Below, piece by piece: positions 6,066-55,660 of a stretch of DNA of 64,000 nucleotides (position 1 is its first letter; each line of letters begins with the position of its first letter). Position numbers and translations under genes: made by a program. The DNA comes from Desulfohalobiaceae bacterium S24. GTDB lineage: Bacteria; Desulfobacterota; Desulfovibrionia; Desulfovibrionales; Desulfothermaceae. The notes below the pieces were generated by a model. It saw only the letters and a program-made list of their open reading frames with translations, had not been told where the DNA came from and did no database searches. Location: the NCBI GenBank assembly GCA_011389765.1, contig JAABTT010000009.1, forward strand, positions 1 to 64,000, in the 5' to 3' direction.

Positions 6066-7508
6066 ATGGACAAAACCGGTCAAAAAGCTGCTCAAGCTCG
6101 AAGCAAGCAACAAGAGGCCTTTCGGGAGAAGATGCAGCAGGCGAATCTGTCTGCTGAGGTGATAGCTTTGTTTTGTTCCTACCTTGATCAACTCGCCTCG
6201 TCTCAAGATGTTGGGTTTATTTCTGAGAATGAGATACAGGCCCTCCAGGACGAGGACATCAGCCATCTCCATGATATCCTCGAGGATGATGTCCAAGTCG
6301 GGGGATCCCTGATGGATCGTTCCGTGCTGGTCAAACTCAACGGCGGTTTGGGAACGAGCATGGGAATGCCCTTTGCCAAATCGCTTTTAAAGGTAAAATC
6401 CGACAAAGCCTTCCTTGATGTGATCGTCCAACAGGCCGGGTTGTGTGCCGGACGATTGAGTCCCTTGTCCCTGGTGCTCATGAACAGCTTCAACACCCAG
6501 CAGGACACTCGGTCTTATTTGGAAAAAATTGGCTGCGCTTCCGAGAGCAACATCTTGTTCTTTGAACAGAATCTTTATCCGAAGATTCTTCAGGATAGCA
6601 TGATGCCGGCCAATTGTCCGGAATCTCCGGAATTGGAATGGAACCCGCCGGGACATGGCGATTTTTTCGCTGCCCTGCACACTTCGGGCATGCTGCGGAA
6701 ACTCCTTGACCAGGGGAAACAGTACGCCTTCATTTCAAACGCGGATAATCTTGGAGCGGTTTTGGATCCGGGTCTTCTGGGCTATTTTGTCCGCCGGGGC
6801 TTTCCCTTCCTGATGGAAGTGGCCTGGAGGGGGACTTCGGATAAAAAGGGCGGGCATATTGCCAAAAGGGACAATGGGCAGTTAATCCTCAGAGAAGTGG
6901 CTCAGTGTCCGGAAGATGACCTGCCGGCTTTTCAAGACATTTCCACCCATTGTTATTTCAATACCAACAATATCTGGGTTGATCTTGCCGCGTTGCAAAA
7001 GAGGATCGATCAGGACGGCCTGCCCCGGCTGCCCCTGATTGTCAACCCAAAGACCCTGAACCCGCGGGATCCTCAAACGCCAAAGGTTTATCAGCTTGAG
7101 ACGGCTATCGGGGCGGCTATTGGAATTTTTGAAAACAGCGGGGCCATTCTGGTGAACAGGGATCGTTTTCTGCCGGTGAAAAAGACGGATGACCTGCTCC
7201 TGGTCCGCTCCGACTGCTATGTTTTTGGTTCTGATTTTCAGCTCAAACCAAACCCCTCCGGAAATCAGGAAGCGATCACGGTTGACTTGGATGAGCAGTA
7301 CTATAAGCTGGTGGATGACTTCGAGGCCCGGTTCCCCATGGGACCGCCTTCCTTGGCGGCCTGCCGGTCCTTGACCATCAGAGGGGACTTTCGGTTCGGC
7401 GCCGATGTGATCTGCAAGGGAGAGGTCCGGCTGGAAAACAGGAGCGGACACCAAGTCCAGATTCAGGACAATGAGGTCCTGACAGGACATGTGCTTTTTG
7501 AGGGATAA
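6066..7508 (+). CDS. UTP--glucose-1-phosphate uridylyltransferase (eukaryote-type UDPGP family)
   Basis: KLNGGLGTSMGMPFAKSLLKVK, NSFNTQQDT, FISNADNLGA; start chosen at ATG 6066 after AGGAGG. Confidence 0.85.
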   Translation: MDKTGQKAAQARSKQQEAFREKMQQANLSAEVIALFCSYLDQLASSQDVGFISENEIQALQDEDISHLHDILEDDVQVGGSLMDRSVLVKLNGGLGTSMGMPFAKSLLKVKSDKAFLDVIVQQAGLCAGRLSPLSLVLMNSFNTQQDTRSYLEKIGCASESNILFFEQNLYPKILQDSMMPANCPESPELEWNPPGHGDFFAALHTSGMLRKLLDQGKQYAFISNADNLGAVLDPGLLGYFVRRGFPFLMEVAWRGTSDKKGGHIAKRDNGQLILREVAQCPEDDLPAFQDISTHCYFNTNNIWVDLAALQKRIDQDGLPRLPLIVNPKTLNPRDPQTPKVYQLETAIGAAIGIFENSGAILVNRDRFLPVKKTDDLLLVRSDCYVFGSDFQLKPNPSGNQEAITVDLDEQYYKLVDDFEARFPMGPPSLAACRSLTIRGDFRFGADVICKGEVRLENRSGHQVQIQDNEVLTGHVLFEG

Positions 7509-7578
7509 GTCCTTCTCGGGTCCAGTCTTCCGCGCAGTCCGAAATTAGAAAATTACAAATCAAACAAACAGAGGCATT

Positions 7579-10500
7579 ATGGAAGCTGAAACAGATTTTG
7601 GATTTGAACTCGTCTGGGAAAAAGAGATCAAAGAACTTGGCGGCAGGGCCAAGTTTTACAGGTATCGCAAAAATGGAGCCGAACTGCTGTCCGTTGAAAA
7701 CAATGATGAGAATAAAGTCTTTGGCATCAGTTTTCCTACGCCGCCGCCGGATTCGAGCGGCGTGGCCCATATTTTGGAGCATTCCGTGCTCTGCGGGTCC
7801 GAAAAATACCCGATCAAAGAGCCTTTTGTAGAGCTTCTCAAGGGATCGGTCCAGACCTTTTTGAATGCCATGACCTTCCCGGACAAGACCTGTTATCCGG
7901 TAGCCAGCCAGAATGTCCAGGATTTCTATAACCTTATGGACGTATATCTGGATGCTGTATTCCATCCCCTGATCCCGCCGGAAGTCCTGGCGCAGGAAGG
8001 CCATCATCTTGAATGGGACCAAGAGCGGTCCACTCTTTTGTATCAGGGCGTGGTCTATAATGAGATGAAGGGGGCCTATTCCTCTCCGGACAGTCTGCTC
8101 AGTGAGCTCTCCCAGCAGTCACTGTTTCCCGATACGGTCTATGGTCTGGATTCCGGAGGACATCCGGAAAAAATCCCTGATCTGAGCTATGCAGAGTTTC
8201 AGGAATTTCACAGGACCCATTATCACCCCAGCAATGCCAAGATATTTATATACGGCGACGACGAGCCCTGGAAAAGGCTTCAAGTGCTGCATGACTATCT
8301 CCAGGATTTTGAGAGACTCGAGGTGAATTCCATTCCGGGCCTGCAGCCGCGGTTTACCAAACCCAGGCGCATGGAGACCTTTTATCCGGCGGAGGATGAA
8401 AGTGGGAAAGGATGCCGCATGACGTTGAACTGGCTGCTTGATGTGACCGCGAACGGCGAGTTGAACATCCTCCTGCACATCCTGGAGACCCTCTTGATCG
8501 GCATGCCGGCTTCACCATTGCGAAAGGCCCTGATGGATTCAGGCCTGGGGGAAGATATCGCGGGAATCGGATTGGAAAGCGATCTGCGCCAGATGTATTT
8601 TTCCACCGGGATGAAGGGGGTGGCCCAGGAGAATCTGGGAGCGCTTGAAGACCTGATTTTCAAGACCCTGCATGAGCTGCACGATCAGGGATTTGATCCG
8701 GGCATGCTGGAAGCAGCCATCAATAGTGTGGAATTCGATCTCAAGGAAAAGAACACCGGGTCTATGCCCAGGGGCTTGCTGGACATGTTCAGGGCCTTGA
8801 GCACCTGGCTGTATGGAGGCGATCCCACCCTGCTTTTGCAGCATGAAGACCTGCTCGCCGGGATTAAAAACAGGCTGCAGAGCGGCGAACGGGTTTTTGA
8901 AAAGCTGGTGGCCGATTGCTTGCTTCAGAACCGGCATCGGTCCACGCTCATTCTGAAGCCGGACCCTGAAAAGGGACGGGAGTTGGAAAGACGGGAAGCG
9001 ATGAAGCTCCAGCAGCAGGCTTTGGCTCTTAGCCATCGGGACAAAGAAAGGATCAATCAGGAGGCTCACAAATTGCGTGAGCTGCAGGAGGCCCCTGACA
9101 GCCCGGAAGCATTGGCCAGGATTCCCAGACTGAAAATTGGCGACCTGGAGCGGGAAGCCCCGATCATTCCTTTGGAGAGGATTGAACGCGAAAACGGCCT
9201 AATCCTCTTCCACGATCTTTTCAGCAACGACATTGTCTATCTGGATGTGGCCTTTGATTTCAGGAGCCTTCCCCAGAAATTTCTGGGGTATGTGCCCCTG
9301 TTTGGCCGCGCTCTGACGGAAATGGGCACGGAGAAAGAGGACTTTGTGTCCCTGGATCAACGCATTCAGTCCAGGACCGGGGGGATTCATCCGGAGACTT
9401 TTGTCTCGCCGGTTGACGGAAGTGAGGAGCAGGCCGCCTTCATTTTCTGGCGGGGCAAGGTCATGCTGGAGAAGATCCAGGAATTGACCGAAATCTTTCA
9501 AGACGTGTTTACTCAGGTCCGCCTGGATGATCCGGTCAGATTCAGACAGATAGTGCTTGAAGAAAAGGCCAGGATGGAGCAGAGGCTCATACCGGGCGGA
9601 CATCAAGTGGTCAACACCAGGCTGCGGGCGAAGTTCAGCGAGGCTGACTGGGTGCATGAACATATGAACGGCATCAGTTACCTGCTCTTTCTGCGTTTTT
9701 TGCTTGAGAAGATTGATAAGAACTGGCCGGAGGTGCTGTCTGACTTGGAAGCCGTCAAGGACGGTCTCATCAACCGGCGCTCCTGCCTTGTCAATGTCAC
9801 CACTGATGCGAAGAGTTTTCAGGAGGTTCTGCCCTGGATCGAGTCTTTGCTCGCCGGACTGCCGGACAAGAAGGAGGTCCAGGTCCAGAAATGGCTTATG
9901 GACTGCGAAGATGGTGTTGAGGGTCTGCAAATACCGTCCCGGGTCAATTTTGTGGGAAAAGGACTGGATCTTTTCGGGCAGGGATACGCCTTCCAGCCTT
10001 CCAGCCTGGTCGTTGCCAGGTATTTGCGAAGTACATGGCTTTGGGATAAATTACGGGTTCAGGGAGGGGCCTATGGCGCCTTCAGCATCATGGACCGCTT
10101 GTCCGGCGTGCTCAGCTTTGTCTCGTACCGCGATCCCCATATTCTGAAGACCTTGAAGGTTTTTGATGAAAGCGCTGCTTTTCTGGAGCAGCAAGCCCTT
10201 GATCCGGCCGAAATCGAAAAAGGGGTGATCGGGACCATCGGGGACATGGACAAGTACCTCTTTCCGGATGCCAAAGGCCTGCATTCCATGATCCGATATC
10301 TGGTTCAGGATACGGATGCCAAACGGCAGGCACGCCGGGAGCAGATTCTGAATACCAACAAGCGTGATTTTCAGGAATTCGGCTCCTGGATGTCCGCCTT
10401 AAAAGATTCAGGACAAGTGGTGGTTCTGGGGGATGAATCCCGACTCGAAACGGCGAGGGAGGACGGACTGGCCTTTGAGCATGTCTGGAAGGTGCTGTAG
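7579..10500 (+). CDS. M16C-family zinc metallopeptidase (presequence protease-like insulinase)
   Basis: HILEHSVLCGSEKYP (HxxEH), VVYNEMKGAYSSP; 973 aa. Confidence 0.93.
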   Translation: MEAETDFGFELVWEKEIKELGGRAKFYRYRKNGAELLSVENNDENKVFGISFPTPPPDSSGVAHILEHSVLCGSEKYPIKEPFVELLKGSVQTFLNAMTFPDKTCYPVASQNVQDFYNLMDVYLDAVFHPLIPPEVLAQEGHHLEWDQERSTLLYQGVVYNEMKGAYSSPDSLLSELSQQSLFPDTVYGLDSGGHPEKIPDLSYAEFQEFHRTHYHPSNAKIFIYGDDEPWKRLQVLHDYLQDFERLEVNSIPGLQPRFTKPRRMETFYPAEDESGKGCRMTLNWLLDVTANGELNILLHILETLLIGMPASPLRKALMDSGLGEDIAGIGLESDLRQMYFSTGMKGVAQENLGALEDLIFKTLHELHDQGFDPGMLEAAINSVEFDLKEKNTGSMPRGLLDMFRALSTWLYGGDPTLLLQHEDLLAGIKNRLQSGERVFEKLVADCLLQNRHRSTLILKPDPEKGRELERREAMKLQQQALALSHRDKERINQEAHKLRELQEAPDSPEALARIPRLKIGDLEREAPIIPLERIERENGLILFHDLFSNDIVYLDVAFDFRSLPQKFLGYVPLFGRALTEMGTEKEDFVSLDQRIQSRTGGIHPETFVSPVDGSEEQAAFIFWRGKVMLEKIQELTEIFQDVFTQVRLDDPVRFRQIVLEEKARMEQRLIPGGHQVVNTRLRAKFSEADWVHEHMNGISYLLFLRFLLEKIDKNWPEVLSDLEAVKDGLINRRSCLVNVTTDAKSFQEVLPWIESLLAGLPDKKEVQVQKWLMDCEDGVEGLQIPSRVNFVGKGLDLFGQGYAFQPSSLVVARYLRSTWLWDKLRVQGGAYGAFSIMDRLSGVLSFVSYRDPHILKTLKVFDESAAFLEQQALDPAEIEKGVIGTIGDMDKYLFPDAKGLHSMIRYLVQDTDAKRQARREQILNTNKRDFQEFGSWMSALKDSGQVVVLGDESRLETAREDGLAFEHVWKVL

Positions 10501-15890: not shown

Positions 15891-16826
15891 TTATCCGGCG
15901 TTTTCCGGGCGGGGATGCATACCGGCTGCTTCGCAGATTTCCGGGACTTTCTCCTCCCATTCAATGGCCATGATATGGAAGCCCTTGACCCCCTGACATT
16001 CCTTGAGCCGCTGGATGGATTCGATAGCGATCTTGATCCCCTCCGCCTGCTGTTTGTCCTTCGGCGTATCGGACATACGCTTGACCAAGGCGTCCGGAAT
16101 GTCCATCCCCGGGACCCGTTTGGCCATGAACTTGGCCATGCCGGCCGATTTGAAGGGAGTGATCCCGGCCATGATACAGGTCTTTTCATGCAGACCTCTT
16201 TCCCTGACATCATGCATCCATTGTTCAAATTTTTCAAGGTTGAAAATGCACTGGGTCTGGATATATTCGGCCCCGGCAGCCACCTTTTTGGCCAGTCTGG
16301 GAACCCTGATTTCATAAGGGTCGGCAAAAGGGTTGGCCGCCGCTCCCACGAACATCCGGGGTGGCCGCTTGATATCGTCGCCACCTAGAAATTTGCCTTC
16401 ATCGCGCATCTGACGTGCGGTTTGAATCAGCTGCATGGAATCAAGATCGTGGACATTCTGCCCCTGGGCGCAGTCCCCGAAGCTCTGGTGGTCGCCGGAG
16501 AGGCAGAGGAGGTTGTGGATGTCAAAGGAGGCCGCTCCCAGAAGATCGCTCTGCATGGCAATCCGGTTACGGTCCCGGGTGACCATCTGCAGGATCGGCT
16601 CCAGTCCCATCTGCTTGATGTGGATGCAGGAGGCCAGGCTGCAGAGCCGGGTCATGGCCGTCTGATTGTCGGTGATATTGATGGCGTCGACATGATCTTT
16701 GATCATCTCGGCCTTTTTCGTTACGGCCTCCGGATCGCTTCCCCGGGGAGGACCGCATTCGGAGGTGACCGCGATATGTCCGGCTGCAAATACCTGTTCC
16801 AGCTTGCTCGGTGTCTTCAGATTCAT
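15891..16826 (-). CDS. metF: methylenetetrahydrofolate reductase, MetF subunit
   Basis: VTSECGPPRGSDPEAVTKKAEMIKDHVDAINITDNQTA, LCLSGDH; start overlaps the metV stop. Confidence 0.93.
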   Translation of the reverse strand: MNLKTPSKLEQVFAAGHIAVTSECGPPRGSDPEAVTKKAEMIKDHVDAINITDNQTAMTRLCSLASCIHIKQMGLEPILQMVTRDRNRIAMQSDLLGAASFDIHNLLCLSGDHQSFGDCAQGQNVHDLDSMQLIQTARQMRDEGKFLGGDDIKRPPRMFVGAAANPFADPYEIRVPRLAKKVAAGAEYIQTQCIFNLEKFEQWMHDVRERGLHEKTCIMAGITPFKSAGMAKFMAKRVPGMDIPDALVKRMSDTPKDKQQAEGIKIAIESIQRLKECQGVKGFHIMAIEWEEKVPEICEAAGMHPRPENAG

Positions 16827-17491
16827 GACTGCACATCCTCCCTCTCCACTTTTCTCGGCCCGCCGGCCCTGTCCGCGGACCAGTCCTTGACCGGGCTCAA
16901 GGTTTCATACTCCTCCAATCGGCCCAGGGAATCCAGGCGATCGACGATCAACTGCCAAGCGCAGGCCAGGTCCGGGTTGATTTCGCATTTGCCGTTGCTG
17001 GACCCGCCGCAGGGACCGTTCATGATCCGTTTGGCGCAGCGGGAGACCGGGCAGATTCCGCCGGTACGGGCCAGGATGCACTGTCCGCAGGCCTGGCAGC
17101 GTTCGGTCCACAGACCCCGGTGCTCGGTGGCTCCCAGAAAACAGGTGTTCACGCCGGGATAGATGGGCAGGCCCGGATAGTGTTCGGCCGTGAACTGAAC
17201 CCCGACTCCGCAGGCCAGGGAGACCAGCGCGTCATACTGGTCGGAGACGCCCCGGATTTCTTCCACATATTCCGAATCGCACTGCCGCTCCAGGGTCAAT
17301 TCCTCGATATTCTTTTCCCGGCCCTGATTCAAAAAATACATGCGCAGGGCCGAAGCCAGGATCTCGACTTCCTTTTTGCCTCCGGCCTCGCAGACCGTGA
17401 CGCACTCATTGCAGCCCAGAATAAGAATTCTTTCATGATCCTTGATCTCCTCGACGATCTCTTCTATAGGCTTTTTATCAGCAACTATCAT
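16823..17491 (-). CDS. metV: MetV-like methylenetetrahydrofolate reductase C-terminal/zinc Fe-S subunit
   Basis: Cys-rich CRACGQC-type C-terminus (CQACGQCILARTGGICPVSRCAKRIMNGPCGGSSNGKCEI), paired with metF. Confidence 0.88.
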   Translation of the reverse strand: MIVADKKPIEEIVEEIKDHERILILGCNECVTVCEAGGKKEVEILASALRMYFLNQGREKNIEELTLERQCDSEYVEEIRGVSDQYDALVSLACGVGVQFTAEHYPGLPIYPGVNTCFLGATEHRGLWTERCQACGQCILARTGGICPVSRCAKRIMNGPCGGSSNGKCEINPDLACAWQLIVDRLDSLGRLEEYETLSPVKDWSADRAGGPRKVEREDVQS

Positions 17492-17561
17492 AAGCTTACC
17501 CCGTCCGGTTCATAATTTTCGATTTTCAATTCGGTCTAGCCCAATTTTTTCCTTAAATCCT

Positions 17562-17700
17562 TGTATGAAAATTCGATTTTTCTTACTCCGTCACCCCGGC
17601 GTAGGCCGGGGTCCAGCTCTTACATTTCAATCTGGATTCCGGCCTACGCCGGAATGACGGAGGTGGTGGACCAATAGTTTCTTTCTCTGATCAAACTGGC
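17562..17700. repeat. dispersed REP-like element, copy 2 (see 1875-2042)
   Basis: tcaccccggcgtaggccggggtccagctcttacattt...ctggattccggcctacgccggaatgacggaggtggt.gaccaatagtttctt...gatcaaactggc shared with 1875-2042. Confidence 0.85.
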
Positions 17701-17812
17701 AGTCGTGGATTTCAAAATGAATAGCAAAACAGTTAATCATAATATTGTATTAAATATCAAATAATTATGTGTCAGATTTGCCAGAGGCAGGGCTGATACC
17801 TGAAACCTTGCG

Positions 17813-18247
17813 TTAGGCCGCCTTCTTGTGTCTTGGCTGCTTGATCGGGCTGGGCCCCAACTCCATGATGGTCTCGTAAATCTCCTGGGCGTACTGGGCG
17901 AATCTCGGCCCTTCGCCGGATGAGAGGTTGAACATCTTGACCCTGTTTCCTCCCACTCCAATGGTATCCAGGATTTTTTGGGCCTGCTCCACCCGTTTCC
18001 TGGCCCGCAGGTTTCCGGTCAGGAAGTGGCAGTCCCCCTCCAGGCAGCCCACCACGGCCACACCGTCGGCTCCTTTTTCAAAGGCCCGCAGCACGTGGAT
18101 GATGTCCACCTTGCCGGTACAGGGAACCCGAATGATCTTCAAGCTCGGAGGATAGGTCAAACGCATCGAACCTGCCAGGTCCGCGGCATTGTATCCTCAG
18201 TAGCTGCAGCAGAAGGCGACAATGATCGGGTTGAATGCCTGGGTCAT
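17813..18247 (-). CDS. mvhD: MvhD-family hydrogenase/HdrA-associated iron-sulfur protein, selenoprotein (in-frame TGA at 18197-18199 = Sec, codon 17)
   Basis: Reads [49 protein letters not shown]... across the TGA; ATG overlaps the hdrA stop. Confidence 0.9.
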
Positions 18248-21200
18248 ACGGCTTCCTCCAGTAAGGCGTCAATTTTGCACATAAGTTGTTCGTCCTCGTA
18301 CCAGTTCAATTTGATGGCCTTGGCCGGGCATTCCGAAGCACAAATTCCGCAGCCGTGGCACATGGCTTCGTCGATCTCGCTGACGCCCTGATCGTTGATC
18401 CTGGGAATGCCGTGCGGGCAGGAGCGGACGCAGATCAGACAGGCGGCGCATTTGTCCGAATCCACGCTGGCCGTCACCGCGGACAGGGTCAGGTAGGGCT
18501 GGGAGAGCAGGGAAATGGCCCTGGAGGCCGCGGCCTTGGCCTGGGCCACTGCTTCGCCGATCAGCTTGGGACTGTGGGCCGTGCCGCAGACGTACATGCC
18601 TTCGGTGCTCATCTCCACCGGCCGCAATTTGACGTGGGCTTCCAAAAAATAGCCTTCTTCATTTCTGGGCGCCTTGAGGACCGAGGCCAGTTCTTCGGTG
18701 TCTTGGGCGCGCATGCCGGCGCTCAGGACCAGGAGATCACTGTCCGCCTGCAGCCGGCGTCCGAGCACGGGATCATCAAAGCTGACTTTTAGGGCTTCTG
18801 CAGTGGCCTCCACCCGGGGCGGATCCTCCGGGGTATATCGGAAAAAGAGAACCCCCTTTTGCCGGGCCAGGGTGTAATAGTCCTCGAGCAGGCCGTACAT
18901 GCGGATGTCCCGGTAGAGGATGGACACCGTGGCCTCCGGGTTCTGCTCCTTGATGTGCAGGGCGTTCTTGACGGCGCTCTGGCAGCAGATCCGGGAGCAA
19001 TTCGGGTTGTCTTCATTCCGGGAGCCGACACATTGGATCATGACCACGTTCTTCAGGTCCCGGGCCCCGCTCTGCTCCAGCCGGTCCGTGAGCTCCAGCT
19101 GGGTGCAGACCCGTTCGTCCCGGCCGTAGAGGTACTCCTCCGGCCGGTATTCCTGAGCCCCGGTGGCCAGAATAATGGCCCCGTGCTCGATCTTTCGTTC
19201 ATACATCCCGGGTCCCACCAGGACTTCAGTGGTGAAGTTCCCTTTGAATCCGGAAAAATTCACCACCAGGGACTGGGTCAAGACCTGGATCTTGGGATGG
19301 TTTTCCACGCGTAGAATCAAATCCTTGAGACCGGCCTGGACATCGGTTCCGTCGATGGCGGCGTGCAAGCGGCGGGCCAGGCCCCCGAGTGCGGCCTCTT
19401 TTTCCAGGAGGACACACTCGAACCCCTGTTCGGCCAGACCCAGGGCGGCGGTCATGCCGGCCAGCCCGCCGCCGACCACCACACTCCGCTTGTTGACCGG
19501 GATCTGTTTTTCGTGGAGCGGGGACAGGGTCGCTGAGCGGGAAACGGCCATGCGGACCAGTTCCTTGGCCTTTTGGGTGGCCGCGTCAAAGGCCCCCCCG
19601 TGCACCCAGGAATTTTGATTGCGGATATTGGCCATCTCGAAGAGGTACTTGTTCAGACCGCAGGCCTCCAGGGTGTCCATGAAGATGGGCTCGTGGGTTT
19701 TCGGGGAGCAGGAAGCCACCACCACCCGATTCAGTCGTTTCTCCTTGATGATGGCCTTCATGTTGTTCTGGGAGTCCTCGGAGCAGGTGAACAGGTTGAT
19801 CCCGGCAAAGGCCACCCCGGGCAGTTCGGAGGCGTAGGCCGTGACCGCCTTGGTGTCCACCCCGCCGGCGATATTGATGCCGCAGTTGCAGACAAAGACC
19901 CCGATGCGCAGATCTTCATTGCTGATGTCCTGCTCCTCGGGCAGGTCCACGGACCGGGTCTCGGTGTGGCGGGCGCCGGACAGCGGGGCGCCGGCAGCGC
20001 AGGCCGCAGCGCTGGCTTCGGTCACTGATTCGGGGATGTCCTTGGGGCCCTGAAAGACGCCGGAAACAAAAATCCCCGGCCGGCTGGTCTCCACCGGGGA
20101 AAAGGTCCCGGTTCTGGCGAAGTTGGAGGCATTCAGCTCCAGTCCGAGCTTATGGGCCAGGTCAATGGTCGATGGCTGGATCTGCAGACCGACGGACAGG
20201 ACCACCAGATCGAAGATCTCTTCGCGCAGTTCCCCGGATTCATCGAAGTATTGCAGGGCGAGATCTCCGGAATCCTGGATAGGGACCACACTGTGCACCC
20301 GGGATTTGATGAACCTGACCCCCTCCTGGTCCTTGGCCCGGTTGTAATACTTTTCGAAATCCTTGCCAAAGGTCCGGATGTCCATGTTGAAGATGGCGCA
20401 GTCCATGTCCGAGTGGGCGTGTTCCTTGGCGATCATGGCCTCTTTGATGGCGTACATGCAGCAGACCGAGGAACAGTAGCTGTTCTTGGAACGATTGATG
20501 TCCCTGGACCCCACGCATTGCAGCCAGGCTATCTTTTTCGGCTCCTGGCGGTCGTATGGCCGGGTCAGATTCCCGAAATATGGGCCGGAAGCACTCAGTA
20601 TCCGCTCGAATTCGGCGCTGGTGACCACGTTGGAATGGATCCCGTAACTCAGGTGATCGAGATCCCCTGGATTGTATTCTTCGCTGCCCGGGCAGAGGAT
20701 CACGGAGCCTACCCGGATCTCGGTGGTGCTCGGTTGATCCTCGTATTTGACTGCCCCGGCCAGACACATTTTTTCACAGAGACCGCAGCCGATGCAGGCC
20801 TCCTGATCGATGGCGAAGGACAGGGGAATGGCCTGAGGATAGTCGATATAGGTGGCCTTTCGGTATTGCAGGCCTTTGTTGTAGGTGTCCACTGCGGCGA
20901 CCGGACAGTGGGAGGCGCAATTGCCGCATCCGGTGCAGGTGAGGGGATCGATGAAGCGGGGCTTGTGGGCCACGCTAACCCGGAAGTTTCCCTGTTCGCC
21001 TTCCAGGGTCTCGATCTCGCTGTTGGCGATGATGTTCACATTCAGATGCCGGCCGACCTCGACCAGTTTCGGGGAGATGACTCACATGGCGCAGTCATTG
21101 GTGGGAAAGGTCTTGTCCAGCTTGGACATCATCCCGCCGATGCTCGGCGATTTCTCCAGGAGATAGACCCGGAAACCGGAATTGGCCAGATCCAGAGAGG

Positions 21201-21276
21201 CCTGCATGCCGGCGATCCCGGCCCCGACCACCAAAGCGGATCCGCTTTGTTCGCTGTGGATGTCTTGCATAATCAC
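18244..21276 (-). CDS. hdrA: HdrA-like flavoprotein, tandem fused (about 1010 aa), selenoprotein (in-frame TGA at 21082-21084 = Sec)
   Basis: ORFs 21082..21276 and 18244..21039 are in the same frame and join as ...[39 protein letters not shown]...; two FAD domains and multiple CxxCxxCxxxC clusters. Confidence 0.92.
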
Positions 21277-21298
21277 TCCTTATACTTACGGTCGTCAT

Positions 21299-21399
21299 AT
21301 ACCAGAAGTTGGCATAGTTTGCGGTTTGTATCTGCCTTCAATAAAACCTTTTAGAGATCCTGTAGGATAGTAGCTTTATTTTGGGCCAACTTCTGGTAT
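21299..21399. repeat. inverted repeat (15 bp arms, 71 bp spacer) in the mvhD-hdrA spacer
   Basis: ATACCAGAAGTTGGC (21299-21313) and its exact reverse complement GCCAACTTCTGGTAT (21385-21399). Confidence 0.85.
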
Positions 21400-21505
21400 C
21401 TAATTGATGTAAAAGAAAATACAATCTTATGCTGAAACTACTCTGATTGCAGTCCTGAGCTTACACTGGAGTTTCACAAAAGCAGCCCGGGATTATCGCG
21501 GCGGC

Positions 21506-22261
21506 CTATGGGGCCACTGCGGAAAATTTGGGTTTGCTGTCTTTTAGAGAGCGCAGTTCCACCAGACCGCCCTTTTCCATCTGGGCCAGGAGAAAGGATA
21601 TCCTCGGGGGCTGCAGGCCGATCCGGTCCCTGATGTCGTAGACGGATTCGCAGCCCTGCCTGAGGGCTGCATAGATGAGATTTTGCTGATATTCCTGTTC
21701 CAGGATGGTATCCAGGACTGTTTCGTAGGCTTCCCGAGTCCATTTTCGGGCGTAGACATCCCCGGATTCGAGCAGATTTTTTTCCTTGCCCAGCGTCCAG
21801 CGCACCGGTTCTGAATCCAGGGTGCGTCGGGCGGCTTCCAGCTGCAGCTGCAGCCGGTCCCGCTGCAAAGGCCCCTGACGAGTGACCGAGGCCACCACTT
21901 CGCTGGTCAGGGAGGCAAAGCGCTGGGCCTCTGCCGAGGAAACCCAGGCCAGGTGAAGCCTGTCCGCACCGATACCCGAGAGTTCCAAGAGTTTTCGGGT
22001 CAATCTGATTTTATTCTCGGCTTGAACATTACCGTCCAGGTAATGGCAGTCACCGATGTGTCAACCGGAAACAAAGACCCCGTCGGCCCCGTTTTCCAGG
22101 GCTTCGAGGACAAAGACCGGATCCACCCGGCCGGAACACATGACCCGCACCGGCCTCAGGTTGGGAGGGTATTGCAGCCTGGAGACACCGGCCAGATCGG
22201 CCCCGGCATAGGCGCACCAGTTGCAGAGAAAGGCGACGATTTTCGGTTCAAATTCTGCCAT
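21506..22261 (-). CDS. mvhD: MvhD-family iron-sulfur protein with C-terminal winged-helix-like extension, selenoprotein (in-frame TGA at 22061-22063 = Sec)
   Basis: ORFs 22061..22261 and 21506..22003 share one frame: ...[41 protein letters not shown]...; the usual residue in GCHxGDCHY is Cys. Confidence 0.9.
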
Positions 22262-22358
22262 ATGCTACCTCGTATGGGTCTTAGGGACTTATCGGTCCAT
22301 CTCTGTCACAGAAAACAAGAAAATGTGTTGCTTCGAAGCAGTTGCAGTCTTTGTCATA

Positions 22359-22460
22359 GAAATTGGAAATTGGAAATTGGAAATTTGATGAGCCGTAATA
22401 GAACACTCTGCTTTTCTGCATTCTTTTCTTGCCAATTTCCAATTTCGAATTTCCAATTTC
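22359..22460. repeat. heptanucleotide repeats (GAAATTG)n and (CAATTTC)n flanking a conserved module
   Basis: gaaattg x3 + gaaattt at 22359-22386; caatttc/gaatttc x4 at 22433-22460. Confidence 0.88.
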
Positions 22461-22682
22461 GAAGTAGTCCTGAACCTTTGGGTTGCGGGCGGAGCCAGCT
22501 TTAGTATACTGCTCCAACTTACATTTTTCAGGATTCTGTCGTTGAAATCAGTCTTTATTTCAAAAACCCAAATTGGATCAGTATATATTCCTCTTTCCGC
22601 GCTCCCCGCTCCCAGTTTTCCCCCTTCTTCGTCCCCCTTTCCCCGCTCCCCGCTCCGCGTTTCCCGTTTCCCCTTCCTCTCC

Positions 22683-25600
22683 TCAGACCGCGGCCCCGAT
22701 GGCGGCTTCGATCTGCCGGTCCCGGAAATGGAGCATGTCGATGGCCCGTTGGGGGCAGGAGGAGGCGCACAAACCGCAGCCCTTGCAGGATGCCGGAATG
22801 TTCGCGGCCCGATGGATATTTGCCTCCACCTCTTCGGCCTGGATGGCCCCAAAGGGACAGATTTCGATACACAGGCCGCAGCCGATGCATTTCCCCTGAT
22901 CGATCTGGGAAACGAGGGGTGAAATTCGGGCCTTGGATTGGGCCAGGATGGTTGCGGCCCGTCCGGCCGCAGCAGAGGCCTGGGCCAGGGACTCCTCGAT
23001 CGGTTTGGGATAATGGGCCAGGCCGCAGCAAAAAAGTCCGTCAGAGGCAAAATCCACCGGTCTGAGTTTGGCGTGGGCCTCCATGAAGAAGTGTTCTGCA
23101 TTGAGGGGCAGTTTGAACAACTGGGCCAGGTGCTGGGTCTGGTTCGGTTCAATGGCCGTGGCCAGGTTGATCAAATCGGCCTGGATTTCTACAGGCTGCT
23201 GCAGGATGGGGTCAAAGACCCGGACGCTGAGGGCCTCTCCGTTTTGGGTGACAAGGGGTTTGTTCTCCAGGCTGTAGCGGATGAAGACCACCCCCAGCTG
23301 CCTGGCTTTTGTGTAGAGCTTCTCCTTGGCCCCCGGGGCCCTGATGTCCCGGTAGAGGATGAAGACGTTCTTCTCCGGTGAGGCCTGCTTGATCCGGATG
23401 GCCTGGGTGATGGACGTGGTGCAGCAGATCCGGGAGCAGTAGGGACGCTCCTGGTTACGGGAGCCGACGCACTGAATGAAGACCACGTTCGAGGCCTGGG
23501 CCAGCTTGTCCGGATCCTGTTCGATTTCATGCCAGCGGGTCACATTGGGGTGCTCGGCACCGAGATATTCTTCGCTTCGGGTGGCCGTCCCCCCGGTGGC
23601 CAAGATGGTCGCCCCGTGCTCCACGCTCCGGGTCTGATCTCCCTGTTTGACCGTACTGCGGAAATTTCCGACAAAGCCGGAGGCGTCAAGCACTTCGGCA
23701 TTGAGCAGGGTGGTGATTTGGGTATGGGTCTGGACCCGCTCCCTGAGATCCCGGAGATAGGCCTGGACGTCTTCGCCGCTCCAGGTATGGGCTATGTCTC
23801 TGGCCACCCCGCCGAGTTCGGCGTCTCTTTCCAGGAGGGTGACGGCAAAACCCTGGTCGGCCAGGTTCAGGGCCGCGGTCATCCCGGAGAGCCCGCCGCC
23901 GATGACCAGGACCGCTTTGGTGATGTCCACGCTCAATTCCGGGATCGCTTCCAGGAGAGAGGCCTTGGCCACCGCCATCTTGACCAGATCTTTGGATTTG
24001 GCCGTTGCTTTTTCGCTGTCCCCGGAGTGGCACCAGGTACATTGATTCCGGATGTTGGCCATCTCAAAGAGATAGGGATTGAGGCCCGAGTCCCGGATGG
24101 TCTCCTGGAACAGTGCTTCGTGGGTCCTTGGGGTGCAGGCGGCCACCACCACCCGGTTAAGATCGTGCTCCCTCACGGTTGCCGCAATGTTGGCCTGGGT
24201 ATCCTGGGAACAGGAAAACTGATTTTCTTCAACATAGGCCACCCCGGGCAGGCTCTTGGCGAATTCTACGATGGAGGGCACGTCGGCCACCCCGCCGATA
24301 TTGGTGCCGCAGTTGCAGACAAACACCCCGATTCTGACCTCCTGCCCGGCGAAATCCTTTTCCGGTCCGAAATGCTTTTCCGAGACCAGGGTCCCTCGGG
24401 CCGCGGCCAGATCGATGCCGGCACTGCCCGCCGCGGCACTGGCCTCCATGACCGACTGGGGAATGTCCTTGCACTCCGTGGCCACCCCGGCGGCATAGAT
24501 TCCCGGGGTGCTCGTGCTCACCGGCGCAAAGTCCCGGGTCTTTAGAAAACGGTCTTCATTGCAGGCGATGCCCATCATCCGAGCGGTTTCCACTCCGGAT
24601 TCCGCGGGTTCCATGCCCACGGACAAAACCACCAGGTCGAAGGTTTCTTCCAGCCGGCAGCCATCTTCGGTGGCGTAGTGCAGGGCCACGGTCCCGTCGG
24701 GATCGGTCTGGGTGATGGAATGCACCCGGCTCCTGAGGAAGCGGACCCCGTCCTGTTCAGCCTTGGTGTAATATTTTTCAAAGTCCTTGCCCGAGGTGCG
24801 CAGGTCCATGTAGAAAATGGACGCTTCACAGTCCGAGCCCACATGTTCTTTGGCCATGAGCGCCTCTTTAATGGCATACATGCAGCAGACCCCTGAACAG
24901 TAGCCATGGTCGCAGCGGTTGATCTCCCGGGAACCCACGCATTGCAGCCAGGCGATCTTTTTGGCGGTCCGGCCGTCCGAAGGGCGAAGCACATGCCCCT
25001 GGGTCGGTCCGCCCGCCGAAAGGATCCGTTCAAACTCGATGCTGGTGACAACGTTGGAGAGGGCACTGTACTGGTAGGTGTCAAAGGAACCGGGATCAAA
25101 GGTCTGCAGCCCGGTGGTCAGGATAATCGAGCCCACGTTGAGCTCCAGGGTCTGCTCCTGATCTTCAAAGAGGATGGCCCCGGTGGGGCAGAATTTTTCA
25201 CAGGCCTTGCATTTGCCTTTTTTGAAATAGATGCAGCGATCATGGTCGATCACATACTTCAGGGGCACGGCCTGGGGATAGGGCACATAGATGGCCTTGC
25301 GCTTGCTGAGGCCTGCTTCATAGTCGTCCGCGGTCCTGGCCGGGCATTTTTCCGAGCACAGCCCGCAGGCAATACATTTCTCCATATCCACGTAGCGCGG
25401 GATTTTCTTCACGGAAACCCGGAAATCCCCCTGCTGTCCCGCAACAGACAGGACCTCGGACAGGGTCAGGATCTCGATGTTATCATGCCGGCCGACCTCG
25501 ACCAGTTTCGGAGAAATGATTCACATGGAGCAGTCATTGGTGGGAAAAGTCTTGTCCAGTTGGGCCATGGTCCCGCCGATGGCCGGAGATTTTTCCAGCA

Positions 25601-25736
25601 GATAGACAAAATAGCCGGAATCAGCCAGATCCAGGGCGGACTGCATTCCGGCGATGCCGCCGCCGACCACCAAAACTGCGCCTACCGGGGGCGCTGTTGC
25701 TACGCTCGCTACTGCATGCATGTCTGTGTGTAACAT
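22683..25736 (-). CDS. hdrA: HdrA-like flavoprotein, tandem fused (about 1017 aa), selenoprotein (in-frame TGA at 25521-25523 = Sec)
   Basis: ORFs 25521..25865 and 22683..25412 share one frame: ...[29 protein letters not shown]...; start chosen at MLHTDMHAV (25736). Confidence 0.92.
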
Positions 25737-25741
25737 CGTAT

Positions 25742-26611
25742 CTATCCTCGCAAAAAATCGAAGATTTGTGGGATTTTCCGTTCCCAGCCCAGGGTGGAGA
25801 GCACCACCCCGCCGAAGCCGGCATTTTTCAAAATTTGAAAAGTCTCGGCCGCGATCTTGAGACATTCCCGTTCTTTGTCCGGGGCCTTCTGAATCCGGGT
25901 GATCAGGGCTTGGGGGAGGTGGATGTGCCGGATATTGCGGTCTATATATCTGGCCATGCCCAGGGATTTCACGAGCAGCACGGTGGGCAGGATCCTGGTC
26001 TTTTCAATGCCGGCCCGGGAGAGGAAGCGGTTCAGGGTCTCGGGGTCAAAAACAGGCGGTGTGACCAGGAAGGCCGCTCCGGCGGCAAGTTTGTGGTTCA
26101 GGTCCTCGATTTCCCGGTCCAGGTCGTCCTCCGGAACCCCCGGATTGATGGTAGTTCCCACCAGAAAATCAGGAACTCCCTTGAGTTCGATACCGGCCAT
26201 GTCTTTTCCCTGCTGCAGGGTCTGCAGGGCCTGCAGCAGATCGGGAAGGCCGATGTCATAGACCTCTTTGGCTTTGGGATGGTCGCCTATCTGGGTGCTT
26301 TCCCCTGTGACCGCCATGATGCCCCGCACGCCGCAGGCATAGGCCGAGAGCAGATCGGCCTGGAGAGCCAGCCGGTTGCGGTCCCGGCAATTGACCTGCA
26401 TCACTACCGGCATTCCGATACCCTGGAGCAGAATCGCCCCGCCCAGGGCGCTCATGCTCATCACGGCGCTGGACATCTCCGGAACGATGCAGCCGTCAAC
26501 CAGCCCCTTTATGCGGGTTACGTTGGTCACAAGCTCGGAGACGTCGGTCCCTTTGGGTGTTTCAATCTCTGCCAGAACGGTAAATTTTCCGGCCTCAAGT
26601 TTCGATTTCAT
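25742..26611 (-). CDS. divergent MetF-family methylenetetrahydrofolate reductase-like protein
   Basis: [69 protein letters not shown] resemble the MetF TIM barrel. Confidence 0.85.
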
Positions 26612-26964
26612 GAAGTGTTTCCCACCTCCTCAGCCGGTACCGGCGGTTGCTCTGTGAGTTTGTGCCGCGATCTCATGGTCATCCAAAAAGAGAATGTAAC
26701 TAGAAATAATTGTAAGATTTTTTGAAATCCATACCTGGAAACCAGGAAATGGTCAAGATATTTTTCAGGGCTTGCTTAAATTTTGCGCAAGATGCCGAGG
26801 TTTTGAATCATTTTTGAGAGATGCCCTCTGCGGATCCGCGAACCGCTCGGAAACCCCTTGATCAAGGCAAGGCTTGAAATTTGTCCTTTTTTTGTCTATC
26901 GTCCCTCCGAGAAGATCAATACGTTCGATGCAAACAGGTTCGGATTCAGGCTCGGAGAAATACC

Positions 26965-27702
26965 ATGAAACTGGCGGTTGCTGGAAAAGGTGGTGTGGGC
27001 AAAACCACAATTTGTGCCTGGCTGGCGGATTATCTGGCTCGAATGGGAGAAGATGTCTGGCTTGTGGATGCGGATACCGCGCTCTCGCTCGGCCCCGCCC
27101 TGGGGCTTGATGAAGACAAGACCCCGGTTCCCCTGGTTCAGCAGAAGGCTTTGATTCAGGAACGGGTGGGCACAGGCGGATTCATCAATATGAATCCCAA
27201 GGTCGATGATCTCATCGCCCGCTTAAGTGTTGAAGTCAGAGAGCGTCTTCACCTGCTGGTCATGGGCACCATCGCCGGGGCCGGAAGCGGCTGCGGGTGC
27301 GCCCCCAATGCCCTGCTCAAGGCCCTGCTCGTCCATCTTGTCTTCCAGTCATCCCAGCATCTGCTGGTTGATTTAGAGGCCGGGGTTGAACACCTGGGCC
27401 GAGGCACCATCACCAAGGTGGACGGTCTCATTGTGGTCAGCGAGCCGAGCCTGCGGGCCTTGAACACTGCGGCCCAGATCAGCGCTCTGGCGACTGATCT
27501 GGGCTTGAAAAAACAGGTTTTGGTCTTGAACCGAGCCGGGAATGATTTCTCTCTTCCGGAGACCAAACCTCTGCCGGGACTCGCGGCCCGGTTTCCCAGT
27601 TTTTCATCCCTGGAGAACAAGCAGCAGATTTCCCCTTCTGTCCTGGATCTGCCGGAGCGGGATGCCATTGACGGCCTGTGCAAAAAAATTCTGCAGTTTT
27701 GA
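26965..27702 (+). CDS. cooC: CooC-like ATPase, CODH/ACS nickel-insertion maturation factor family
   Basis: MKLAVAGKGGVGKTTICAWLADYLARMG, GCGCAPNALLKALL (CxC), DLEAGVEHLGRGT. Confidence 0.9.
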   Translation: MKLAVAGKGGVGKTTICAWLADYLARMGEDVWLVDADTALSLGPALGLDEDKTPVPLVQQKALIQERVGTGGFINMNPKVDDLIARLSVEVRERLHLLVMGTIAGAGSGCGCAPNALLKALLVHLVFQSSQHLLVDLEAGVEHLGRGTITKVDGLIVVSEPSLRALNTAAQISALATDLGLKKQVLVLNRAGNDFSLPETKPLPGLAARFPSFSSLENKQQISPSVLDLPERDAIDGLCKKILQF

Positions 27703-34629: not shown

Positions 34630-36264
34630 ATGTCGAGACTTTCATGCTTTCGGATGCCCGTATTGACTCTTCTTGGTGGGATTTTCCTGTTTTTGGCCCT
34701 TGGGCCGGCGGGCTCCTCGCCTCAAGCGAGCGCAGGCCCCGGGAGGCCGGATCTTCTCCGGCTGAGCCTGCCGGCCGCCTCCGGTCCACAGGAGATGCCA
34801 AAGGTCTGGTTTCAGCATGACCTGCACACCGCCGCGCCAGCCGGGAAGGACTGCAGCGTCTGTCATCTCAATGATGGCGGCATCGGGGGATTTTCCTCCC
34901 TGCAGGGTCAGGAGGTCGGACCGGGCATGGAATCGTTCCATGAACTCTGTCTGGGCTGCCACGAACAGTTGCGGGAAGAGGGGAGGGCCACGGGGCCGCT
35001 GACAGGTGAGTGCCGCAAATGCCATACCCGTAGGCCAGGGGTCCGCGCCGATCAGCAGCCGCTCTTCTTCGGCCGCTTCCTGCACGCCCGGCATGGGGAA
35101 AAACACCTGGGGGAAGTCCTTGGGAAAGAGACCCCGGCGCATTGCGGGGCCTGCCATCATGAGTACGACGAACAGAGCGACAGGCTCGTATACCGGCAGG
35201 GTGAGGAGGGCTCCTGCCGTTACTGCCATGCGACCCAGTCAACAGAGAAGACCCCCTCCATGCGGGAGGCCGCGCATGAGTCCTGTGTCGCCTGCCATCA
35301 GCGCATACGCGAACAGGTACCCGGACGCGCCGGGGGACCGGTCCGGTGCACAGGCTGCCATGGCCGGGAGCGAGCCTGGCAGGCCGCACAATCCGCTGTC
35401 CCGCCCTATTTTCCCGGCGAACGGCCCGATGTCCTGCTTCTGGGTAACCCGGGGGAGGCGGTATCATCCTTATCCAAACAACCGGAGACACGGACCCGGC
35501 GGATTCCAGCGGTGACTTTCCAGCATCGGCAGCATGAACAAAAGATCAGGACCTGCCGGGCCTGTCACCACGAATCGCTTGAGCCGTGCCGCCAGTGCCA
35601 TGCCGGACAAATTGCCCCTTTTCAGGGCAAACCAGTGCCTCTGGAGCAGGCCATGCATGACCCGGGCAGCGGGAAAAGCTGCATCGGCTGCCATAACCGG
35701 ATGAAGCAGGAGGCGGATTGCGCCGGCTGCCATCATCAGATTGCCTTCACCAGGTTTGCGGATTCCAGGTGCGAGGCCTGTCACAGTTCAGCCAACCGCG
35801 AATTCCCCCGGGAAGGGTTCCGGGATCGGGCCGATTCCAGCGCAATCGGAGCCGCCGAGTCCAAGGCTGACACCGAGCCCCTTGATTTCAGCGACATCCC
35901 CCAGCATGTCAGGATCGACAGCCTGTCCGAAAACTATGAAGCGGTGCACTTTCCCCATGGGAAGATTCTCCGCTCGCTTCAGGAGCGCATCGCCCGGAGC
36001 AGCCTGGCCGGTTCCTTTCACCAGGGGGCGGATACGCTGTGCCGGGGCTGTCATCATACCAACTTTGACCGGCAGCAGATCCAGAATTGCGGTTCCTGCC
36101 ACGGGGACAGCGCCAGGCCGGGCGGCGATGCCCCCGATTTGAAAACAGCCTACCACGACCAGTGTCTGGGCTGTCACCAGAAGATGGGTCTGGAAGGACT
36201 TGAGGCGACCGAATGCGTTCAGTGCCACCGGGAAAAAGGACAATCAGGAGTTGGAAAGCAGTGA
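34630..36264 (+). CDS. hmcA: 16-heme high-molecular-weight cytochrome c HmcA
   Basis: I count 16 CxxCH motifs in 544 aa, signal peptide, followed by hmcB-F order. Confidence 0.95.
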
Positions 36265-36278
36265 GCAGGGGTTCAAGC

Positions 36279-37376
36279 ATGAGCATTTCACGACGCAATT
36301 TTTTGAGCTGGATGGGGGCGGGGGGAGCCTGCGCCCTGAGCGCGACGCGCTCCGGGGCGTCCCCGGTCCAGGAGTTTCCAGGGTATGCCGAAAGCTATGC
36401 GGTGCTGCACGATAGCACCAAATGTATCGGCTGCCGCAGCTGTGAGCAGGCCTGCAACCAGGTCAATGCCCTTCCAAAGCCGGAGAAGCCCTTCGACGAT
36501 CTCTCCGTCCTTGCCGAGAAGCGGCGGACCAGCGCCGGGGCCTACACCGTGGTGAACAGATTTTTCGATGCATCCGGGCAGACGGTGCGCTACGTAAAAA
36601 CGCAGTGCAACCATTGCCTCGAACCCGCCTGCGTTTCCGCCTGCTTTGTCAAAGCCCTGCAAAAAGATCCAAGCGGGGCCGTCCGCTATGACGCCTCCCT
36701 CTGCGTGGGCTGCCGCTACTGCATGATCGCCTGTCCTTTTGAAATACCGGCCTATGAATACGACGAACCCCTGACCCCCAGGGTGATGAAGTGCACCCTC
36801 TGCCGGCCTCGTATCATTGAGGGAAAACTGCCGGGATGCGTGCAGGGCTGTCCCACCCGGGCTCTCAGCTTCGGCAAGCGGCAGGAGCTGATCGCCAAGG
36901 CCAGGCAGCGCATTTGGGAGCACCCCGATCACTACCAGGACCATATCTACGGGGAACAGGAAATGGGGGGAACGAACTGGCTGTATCTTTCGGCGGTCCC
37001 CTTTTCCCGCATCGGGATGCGTGAGGATCTCGGGACCACCTCCGCCCCGGAACTGACCTCGGGGGCTTTGGCTGCGGTTCCTATGGTTGCCGGTCTCTGG
37101 CCGGTCCTGCTCGCCGGCCTTTACGCCATATCCAGACGAAAGGATGCCCTTGCCAGGAGCGAGCAAAAAAATGCAGTGGCCGAGACCGTGAACAGGGCTC
37201 AGGAAGAGACCGAGGCCAAACTCGCCGCCCTCAGGGAGAAAATGACCCGGGAAAAGGAGGCGGCCATCAGCTATGAAGTGAAAAAAGCCCTGGACGAGGC
37301 CGCGAAACAGGCTGAGGCGGGCGAAGAAGCAGAGCCGGACGGTTCCGGAACAAAATCGTCCAAGGAGGACACCTAA
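36279..37376 (+). CDS. hmcB: HmcB, Tat-exported 4x[4Fe-4S] ferredoxin-like subunit
   Basis: [16 protein letters not shown] Tat signal; [38 protein letters not shown]; start at ATG 36279. Confidence 0.93.
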
Positions 37377-38540
37377 ATGGCAGGAGGACATTTTAGCAGG
37401 GGGACATTCCAATGGCGGCCTTTTCATGTGATCGTCGGACTGATTTTCCTGGCCGGCCTGATCGTCACGGTGCTCCGGTTTACAGGCGGTCTGGGAACCG
37501 TGACCAATCTCGACGACAACAATCCCTGGGGACTGTGGATCGGGTTTGATCTGCTCTGCGGAGTGGCCCTGGCTGCCGGGGGCTACGTCACCTCCGCGGC
37601 CTGCTATATCTTCGGACTGAAGCGCTATCACACCGCGGTGAGACCGGCCATATTGACCGCGTTTCTGGGGTACGCCCTGGTGGTTTTGGCTCTGCACTAC
37701 GATGTCGGCCGTTTCTGGCGCCTGCCCTATCCCATTTTTGTCTCCCAGGGGACCACCTCGGTCCTCTTTGAGGTCGGCCTGTGCGTGTTTTTGTACCTCA
37801 CGGTTCTGTTTCTCGAGTTCAGTCCGGCGGCCCTGGAGTGGCTGGGCTGGAAAAAGGTGCGCGCCCTGGTGGTCAAATTGACGCTGGTCCTGACCATTTT
37901 CGGAGTGATCCTCTCCACTTTGCACCAGTCCTCCCTGGGGGCCCTGTATCTCATCGCCCCGTCCAAGCTTCATCCCCTCTGGTATTCAGGGTACCTGCCG
38001 GTGTATTTCTTTGTTTCCAGCATCTTCGCGGGGATGTCCATGGTCATCTTCGAGTCCAGCCTGTCCCATCGGTTTTTGCATCGGAAAATGGATGAACGTC
38101 ATATCCGGGAAAGTCACGATGTGGCCTTCGGATTCGGGAAGGCCGCTTCCTTCCTGATGATCAGCTATCTGGGCATCAAGCTCGTGGGCCTGGCCATGGA
38201 CAACACCTGGCAGTATCTGGCCAGCTCCTGGGGGGGATGGTTCCTGCTGGAGCTCATCGGTTTTGTGGCCCTGCCCGCCTTTCTGTTCGCCGTGGCCGTC
38301 CGGGACAGGAATCTGAAACTGCTGCGCTTCAGCGCCGTCCTCTCGGTCCTGGGCCTGATCCTCAACCGCTTCAATATCTCGCTCATTGCCTTCAACTGGC
38401 ATCTGCCGGCTGCCGAGCGATATTTTCCGAGCTGGATGGAAATCGTGCTGTCCATCTTCATCGTCACCTTAGGGGTGGCGGCCTATCGCTTTGCCTGCAT
38501 CCGGATGCCCATCCTGTATGATCATCCGGATTATTCCTGA
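37377..38540 (+). CDS. hmcC: HmcC, NrfD-type integral membrane subunit
   Basis: Polytopic NrfD/DsrP-type protein, NPWGLWIGFDLLCGVALAAGGY. Confidence 0.93.
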   Translation: MAGGHFSRGTFQWRPFHVIVGLIFLAGLIVTVLRFTGGLGTVTNLDDNNPWGLWIGFDLLCGVALAAGGYVTSAACYIFGLKRYHTAVRPAILTAFLGYALVVLALHYDVGRFWRLPYPIFVSQGTTSVLFEVGLCVFLYLTVLFLEFSPAALEWLGWKKVRALVVKLTLVLTIFGVILSTLHQSSLGALYLIAPSKLHPLWYSGYLPVYFFVSSIFAGMSMVIFESSLSHRFLHRKMDERHIRESHDVAFGFGKAASFLMISYLGIKLVGLAMDNTWQYLASSWGGWFLLELIGFVALPAFLFAVAVRDRNLKLLRFSAVLSVLGLILNRFNISLIAFNWHLPAAERYFPSWMEIVLSIFIVTLGVAAYRFACIRMPILYDHPDYS

Positions 38541-38577
38541 TCGTTGTCTGTTGTAACGTCTGTGAAGGGGGACAACA

Positions 38578-38721
38578 ATGCAGACCATGTTCCATACGCT
38601 CCATGCATTCATGCTGCACACCAAGAGCATCACCTATCTTCTCGTGGGGGGCTTGCTGATCGGCTTCCTGCTGTTCTGGTTCTTTCTCACGGGGAGAGAC
38701 GATGAGGATCCTCAAGCATAA
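38578..38721 (+). CDS. hmcD: HmcD, 47-aa single-TM subunit (missing from the ORF track because of length)
   Basis: My translation: MQTMFHTLHAFMLHTKSITYLLVGGLLIGFLLFWFFLTGRDDEDPQA*; correct position in the hmc operon. Confidence 0.85.
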   Translation: MQTMFHTLHAFMLHTKSITYLLVGGLLIGFLLFWFFLTGRDDEDPQA

Positions 38722-38733
38722 GGGAGTGAATCC

Positions 38734-39411: not shown

Positions 39412-39470
39412 GAAGGGCCGGCCATTGCCGGGACACCCACAACCGTTTTTGAAGCGAGGAGAAAAGACCC

Positions 39471-47538: not shown

Positions 47539-47592
47539 AAGCGTCTTCCTTTTTATGCCTTCAGCACGAGTAAATCTTCTTTCGGAAATATT

Positions 47593-53794: not shown

Positions 53795-53938
53795 TTTTTT
53801 TCACAAACAAAGGGATTGCGGGGATCTTTTTTCGGGGAATATGAGCCGACGCCGGGCCGGTTCAGGTGCGTTCAACCCGCTGCGAATAAAGATGTTTTTC
53901 TATGCAGAGGCAGCAAGCTCAGCTCGTGCGCGCCTTTG

Positions 53939-53967
53939 TTGACAAGCCTTTATTTTGCAGTTAATTC
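53939..53967 (+). promoter_or_regulatory. putative sigma70-type promoter upstream of acsD
   Basis: TTGACA-N17-TAATTC in an AT-rich intergenic region about 45 nt before acsD. Confidence 0.4.
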
Positions 53968-54013
53968 AATATAAATTTTTCTCAAAAACCTCAATCTATA
54001 ATAAGGAGTGGAT

Positions 54014-55600: not shown

Positions 55601-55660
55601 GATTCGTGGCCTTGCGTGTGACGATTTGAATGAGCACGAGATTTATAAAGGAGTTCCCTT

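Follow-up and report, generated by a model that had tools for sequence, protein, structure and literature searches.

The gene cluster at positions 15891-26611 of the window (the whole 64-kb stretch of DNA analysed) appears to encode, in a Wood-Ljungdahl sulfate reducer, a variant of the Hdr-type MetVF methylene-THF reductase that depends on Sec and does without HdrBC. We place the probability of this reading, proposed mechanism included, at roughly 0.6. It is based on conserved UGA codons at Cys sites, hairpins under selection, genes for tRNA-Sec, SelB and SelD, and a conserved gene neighbourhood. That the organism reduces sulfate and has the Wood-Ljungdahl pathway is very probable, since dsrA is present in the genome and genes of the Hmc complex (hmcA, B, C, F), together with those of AcsV, CODH and ACS, are found on the plus strand of the window at 34630-40868 and 51842-61542.

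Seven genes run on the minus strand from 26611 to 15891 (MetF-like, HdrA, MvhD, HdrA, MvhD, MetV, MetF), and all were found in the positions and order claimed in an earlier note on this DNA. Pfam matches comprised two to MTHFR, two to FlpD (165-171 bits), one to DUF5981/MetV and those to HdrA-type FAD/Fe-S proteins. The operon's first gene (25742-26611) encodes a MetF-like protein of the MTHFR fold (Pfam MTHFR, 95 bits) which, when compared with 38 homologues, keeps most MTHFR residues and has PEM-N where MetF has TDNQT. Its stop is separated by 5 nt from the start of HdrA-up (22683-25736), which is followed by MvhD-up (FlpD, 21506-22261), HdrA-down (18244-21276), MvhD-down (FlpD, 17813-18247), MetV (DUF5981, the Fe-S/zinc partner of MetF, 16823-17491) and the methylene-THF reductase MetF (15891-16826). 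Both HdrAs are double (type II) forms without a GltD insert. The start of mvhD-down overlaps the hdrA stop, metV and metF share an ATGA overlap and the remaining gaps are 421, 229 and 321 nt; the spacing thus looks operon-like in places. With metV and metF adjacent, MvhD and HdrA in the same cluster and the neighbourhood conserved, the proposal of a MetVF-HdrA-MvhD electron-transfer module was supported. The intergenic stretches 22262-22682 and 17492-17812, inside the operon, contain GAAATT-type inverted repeats and an HSGVGRNP-type REP-like repeat. Immediately upstream of the operon lies a divergent gene for a CbiA/CooC-like ATPase (26881-27702, plus strand).

Each HdrA and MvhD frame contains exactly one internal UGA, four in total, as had been claimed for the TGA codons that split these electron-transfer genes. 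They are located, all on the minus strand, at 25521-25523 in HdrA-up (DCSM-U-IISPK), 22061-22063 in MvhD-up (GUHIGDCHY), 21082-21084 in HdrA-down (DCAM-U-VISPK) and 18197-18199 in MvhD-down (CCSYU). The suggestion that they occupy conserved Cys-type positions also held, as homologues have Cys at these sites. In the two HdrAs the UGA falls at the position of Cys197 in the aligned HdrA of M. thermolithotrophicus (PDB 5ODC), whilst the two MvhD sites correspond to two different conserved Cys of MvhD, namely the first Cys of GCxxGxC in MvhD-up (GUxxGxC) and the second Cys of CxxC in MvhD-down (CxxU). Every one of the 82 MvhD-down orthologues whose sequence includes the site has a UGA there. Of the HdrA N-halves, 64 contain a UGA and 4 have Cys instead; a small number of them belong to HdrAs without a link to MetV. 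That every examined MvhD-down orthologue keeps its UGA makes it testable whether the methylene-THF step requires a Sec at, or close to, an Fe-S ligand position. HdrA and MvhD/VhuD, presented in the earlier note as known selenoprotein families, are established as such (PMC13188914, PMC1794560, PMC2702500). The genome contains ten FlpD/MvhD copies, seven of them with a UGA. On contig C73 (L043, ~7227-7595) an MvhD has two in-frame UGAs (CTWU, GUHIGEC), and the same stretch holds a second HdrA-MvhD pair, again with a UGA in its MvhD.

A SECIS-like hairpin follows each UGA on the minus strand. In both HdrA-up (25488-25505) and HdrA-down (21049-21066) it reads CUGGUCG-AGGU-CGGCCGG, in MvhD-down (18167-18183) CGGACCU-GGC-AGGUUCG, and in MvhD-up it spans 22017-22056 with the inner stem CAUUACC-UGGAC-GGUAAUG at 22027-22045. 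Drawing on the general bacterial SECIS consensus, hairpins were scored as bSECIS-like when the apical loop started 23-25 nt downstream of the UGA and had a G within its first two bases. The hairpins after the UGAs exceed chance: all four sites score, compared with 601 of 4782 background codons (12.6%). A position immediately downstream and a conserved loop G are given for bacterial SECIS elements in PMC1794560. An Rfam scan of the window at its threshold gave no match; bacterial SECIS elements are not expected there.

The strongest evidence for Sec decoding is the HdrA hairpin. In 395 genomes of the phylum we searched for a UGA followed by any of the thousands of possible encodings of LVEVGR(H), and obtained 135 matches to UGA-type HdrA genes, from 64 genomes representing 49 genera. 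An identical 20-mer, exactly CTGGTCGAGGTCGGCCGGCA, is present in 130 of the 135 genes (64 genomes). In three of the five exceptions a C to T change is accompanied by a paired G to A change, so that a C-G pair becomes U-A and pairing is preserved, and in the other two the terminal pair is lost. These compensated variants appeared only in the 395-genome set, no base having varied in a smaller set of HdrA hairpins. None of 18 Cys-type HdrA genes contains the 20-mer (Fisher p ~3e-19, with the relatedness of the genomes ignored), and the codons that flank the hairpin in the UGA-type genes vary freely. Moreover, MvhD-down codons UGA+5 to +9 read GCG GAC CTG GCA GGT in 80-81 of 81 sequences. Among 49 conserved degenerate columns, only those of these hairpin codons, five in all, have an entropy <0.15, and their neighbours vary. 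Taken together, the codon comparisons show strong RNA-level selection on the putative SECIS elements, and the claim of a hairpin just downstream of each TGA is upheld both by position and by synonymous codon freezing. The frozen HdrA hairpin also provides a simple 20-nt signature for finding such Sec HdrA genes, which routine gene calling breaks into two pieces.

The genome assembly (3.5 Mb, 94% complete) encodes a tRNA-Sec with anticodon UCA (80 bits), SelB (370 bits) and SelD (376 bits), whose own gene has a UGA. Thus selB, selC and selD of the Sec genes are present, whilst selA was not found in this 94%-complete assembly, including next to selB, which adjoins murA. As selA was found in 6/11 genomes of the family, the congener G008 among them, an assembly gap is likely. 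With the tRNA-Sec, SelB, the UGA-containing SelD and a SECIS-like hairpin after each UGA, and with Cys in the homologues, the four UGAs are very probably read as Sec, as had been proposed. Standard ORF calling does end at each UGA, as would be the case were they true stops, assembly errors or marks of pseudogenes. Yet the same UGA recurs at the same sites in tens of species and genera, next to codon-frozen hairpins and in a genome with Sec machinery; error was rejected on this recurrence and on the near-invariant HdrA hairpin, and all three readings are vanishingly improbable.

As previously claimed, the locus at 15891-26611 contains no gene for HdrB, HdrC, a hydrogenase or a formate dehydrogenase. 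The CCG domain marks HdrB, the catalytic subunit of the HdrABC heterodisulfide reductase, and its only match within the 64-kb window is HmcF (39471-40868). We found no NAD(P)H site in the locus either. The lack of HdrB and HdrC had been taken as a sign of unusual composition. A MetV profile search of named genomes gave at least 549 confirmed loci, of which the best 80 were retained; these are assigned to Desulfobacterota or Deltaproteobacteria, except for two that carry just the label Proteobacteria, and counts from them describe the clade nearest this MetV. The upstream comparison was restricted to the 55 of these with at least 5.2 kb of upstream sequence. Fifty were HdrBC-free with one HdrA carrying a GltD (NAD(P)H) insert of ~476 residues, an insert absent from both window HdrAs. 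Cultured relatives with a locus of the GltD type are Desulfonema magnum (L143), Desulfocicer vacuolatum (L165) and Desulfospira joergensenii (L168). Three had the double HdrA-MvhD arrangement, one (L126) contained HdrC and HdrB, as does the incomplete locus L129, and one (L148) had another form of HdrA. In the MetV-linked HdrA of L148 (5790-9512) a [2Fe-2S]/NuoG-like N-terminus replaces the TrxR N-part. The absence of HdrBC is therefore not an odd feature but belongs to the commonest form (50/55 Desulfobacterota loci), one also published for Thermacetogenium phaeum (PMC6895022). Because of this count and the UGA frequencies in MvhD-down and HdrA given above, an HdrBC-free and UGA-containing module is evidently the rule in this clade. 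What is truly unusual is the second HdrA-MvhD pair, which occurs where the downstream HdrA lacks the GltD insert. The comparison describes one conserved HdrA-MvhD-MetV-MetF core with exchangeable electron inputs, these being a GltD domain, HdrCB or a second HdrA-MvhD pair.

The double arrangement was seen in the window's genus (G007, whose contig is the same as that of L100, and G008), in Eth-SRB2 (L115), in L161 and, as far as the contig reaches, in L130. Both pairs stay with metVF in the same order throughout. In L115 the GltD insert is located in HdrA-up, whereas neither window HdrA has one. In a tree, the HdrA-down sequences of double loci form one clade (0.97) beside the GltD-type MetVF HdrAs, and HdrA-up groups with the L115 HdrA-up and an HdrA of a different operon in the related genus G006 (1.0). 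The latter grouping is consistent with two complexes in one operon, in which HdrA-down, MvhD-down and MetVF would form the reductase and HdrA-up and MvhD-up would only be co-expressed, with another partner (e.g. of the HdrD-like or thiol type). In G006 the closest HdrA-up-MvhD-up pair is indeed found away from metVF (L182, contig C11, 5993-16551), where its neighbours include an HdrD-like protein with a UGA and a protein resembling pyridine nucleotide-disulfide oxidoreductases. The L182 cluster continues with HdrA-up, MvhD-up with its tail, and another HdrA and MvhD. The C-terminal tail of MvhD-up in the window, predicted to fold as helix-helix-strand-strand in the manner of a winged helix, likewise points to a separate role; Foldseek matched the first half of the protein to MvhD and returned no named relative for the tail. 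However, the conserved linkage of both pairs to metVF argues against separate complexes, and the missing GltD insert in HdrA-down of double loci suggests its functional replacement by the second pair. Two complexes are therefore possible but somewhat unlikely.

According to PMC9012536, the [4Fe-4S] cluster in the N-terminal domain of HdrA has Cys197 as a ligand, donated by the partner HdrA through its TrxR domain. In both window HdrAs the N-half carries Sec197 and lacks the N-terminal domain, whilst the C-halves keep the N-terminal Fe-S domain (aligned for HdrA-down) and have Ala at the Cys197 position. We therefore expect the two halves to build the [4Fe-4S] cluster between them, Sec serving as one of its ligands. 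E356 and K409, the marks of a bifurcating flavin in HdrA (PMC9430772, PMC12054007), are both present in the N-halves of both HdrAs. The C-half of HdrA-up has Thr for K409 and that of HdrA-down has Thr for E356. As each C-half has lost one of the two residues, at most one bifurcating flavin per HdrA, and two in the operon, would be allowed, and this number is what we predict. From these residues we infer bifurcation or confurcation at this locus.

MetVF is known as the methylene-THF reductase (PMC9430772 and established knowledge), and pull-downs from Sporomusa found MetF/MetVF, HdrA and MvhD in contact (PMC9430772). In the mechanism that we propose, MetVF would interconvert methylene-THF and methyl-THF, and MvhD-down, with its Sec and [2Fe-2S] cluster, would carry electrons between MetVF and HdrA-down. 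Within the double HdrA the N-half flavin would bifurcate, and Sec197 and the C-half Fe-S domain would complete the [4Fe-4S] cluster. The other electron input or output would be the GltD NAD(P)H domain of the same HdrA in most relatives and HdrCB in a few. In the window's genus, which has neither, the second Sec pair of HdrA-up and MvhD-up may fill that place, with HdrA-up as the most likely second exchange point, for ferredoxin or another carrier. One or two coupled flavin steps would then link the -200 mV methylene/methyl-THF couple to low-potential ferredoxin. In the Wood-Ljungdahl pathway it has long been an open question how energy conservation is coupled to the oxidation of methyl-THF or the reduction of methylene-THF, and our literature search returned no biochemistry of an HdrBC-free bifurcating version. 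More tentatively, the locus might represent a subclass of methylene-THF reductase with two double HdrAs that act one after the other. Each would have its own Sec MvhD and a [4Fe-4S] cluster ligated by Sec, and together they would form a two-step flavin bifurcation or confurcation relay without HdrBC or an NAD(P)H domain.

HdrA and MvhD could instead act without bifurcation and serve only to connect MetVF with the quinone pool of the membrane or with other carriers, along the lines proposed for Sporomusa ovata and T. phaeum. MvhD of S. ovata is mostly membrane-associated and H2-driven methylene-THF reduction there is membrane-bound (PMC9430772), PMC6895022 proposes that an HdrABC system of T. 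phaeum links MTHFR to menaquinone, and the organism studied here has an Hmc-type membrane complex. This is nonetheless a rather doubtful account of the locus, as the published bifurcating-HdrA signature is kept in both N-half flavin sites.

The Sec-dependent module is built from parts of familiar types that are common among relatives, and the doubled arrangement is a rare variant. The association of MetVF, HdrA and MvhD with HdrCB in acetogens, cited in the earlier note, is that of HdrCBA-MvhD-MetVF in Moorella thermoacetica and Sporomusa ovata, where MetV, MetF, MvhD and a long double HdrA with bifurcation residues are clustered as here (PMC9430772). In contrast to those systems, the window locus is without HdrB and HdrC, has two HdrA-MvhD pairs, all with Sec, and encodes an extra MetF-like protein; moreover, the Moorella HdrA has the GltD/NAD(P)H domain that the window HdrAs lack. 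In T. phaeum MetFV is found with HdrA and MvhD whilst hdrB and hdrC lie elsewhere (PMC6895022), and Ca. Syntrophoarchaeum has MetFV-HdrA-MvhD clusters (PMC9012536); the available text of these two sources describes neither a second HdrA-MvhD pair nor Sec. Conversely, Sec HdrA/HdrL and Sec MvhD/FrhD, often HdrBC-free, occur in Desulfobacterium autotrophicum, Desulfococcus multivorans and Syntrophobacter fumaroxidans, with tandem hdrA copies in Syntrophobacter, but the MetVF link and the four-Sec doubled form are not described in the accessible portions of PMC2702500, PMC5109826 and PMC1794560. Type II HdrAs of ANME archaea and methanogens likewise consist of two TrxR/FAD halves that complement each other, one lacking Cys197 and the other the N-terminal domain. 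They are archaeal, with FdhB/F420-type partners rather than MetVF, and Sec at position 197 is not described in the parts available of PMC9012536 and PMC12054007. In Seep-SRB1g, HdrABC is encoded next to metF (PMC10553843). In the openly searchable literature we found neither the four-Sec doubled form nor the near-universal UGA of the MvhD linked to MetVF nor the frozen SECIS of HdrA, and priority is uncertain.

Lastly, the same window contains a separate but related Sec-free module on the minus strand (43795-48354), absent from the earlier note, which encodes MetV, MetF, an HdrA N-half and an HdrA C-half fused to MvhD. It has no UGA and has Ser at the MvhD Sec position. The two modules might be isozymes interchanged by selenium supply, as with Vhu/Vhc of Methanococcus, where selenium-dependent switching is known (PMC2702500), and their presence in one window would fit such a switch. 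The Sec-free module is divergent and built otherwise, however, with HdrA in two genes and MvhD fused, and its retention beside the Sec module in further species (L099, L109 and L150) suggests a different role, which makes interchangeable isozymes improbable. A further module related to 43795-48354 is found in L087.
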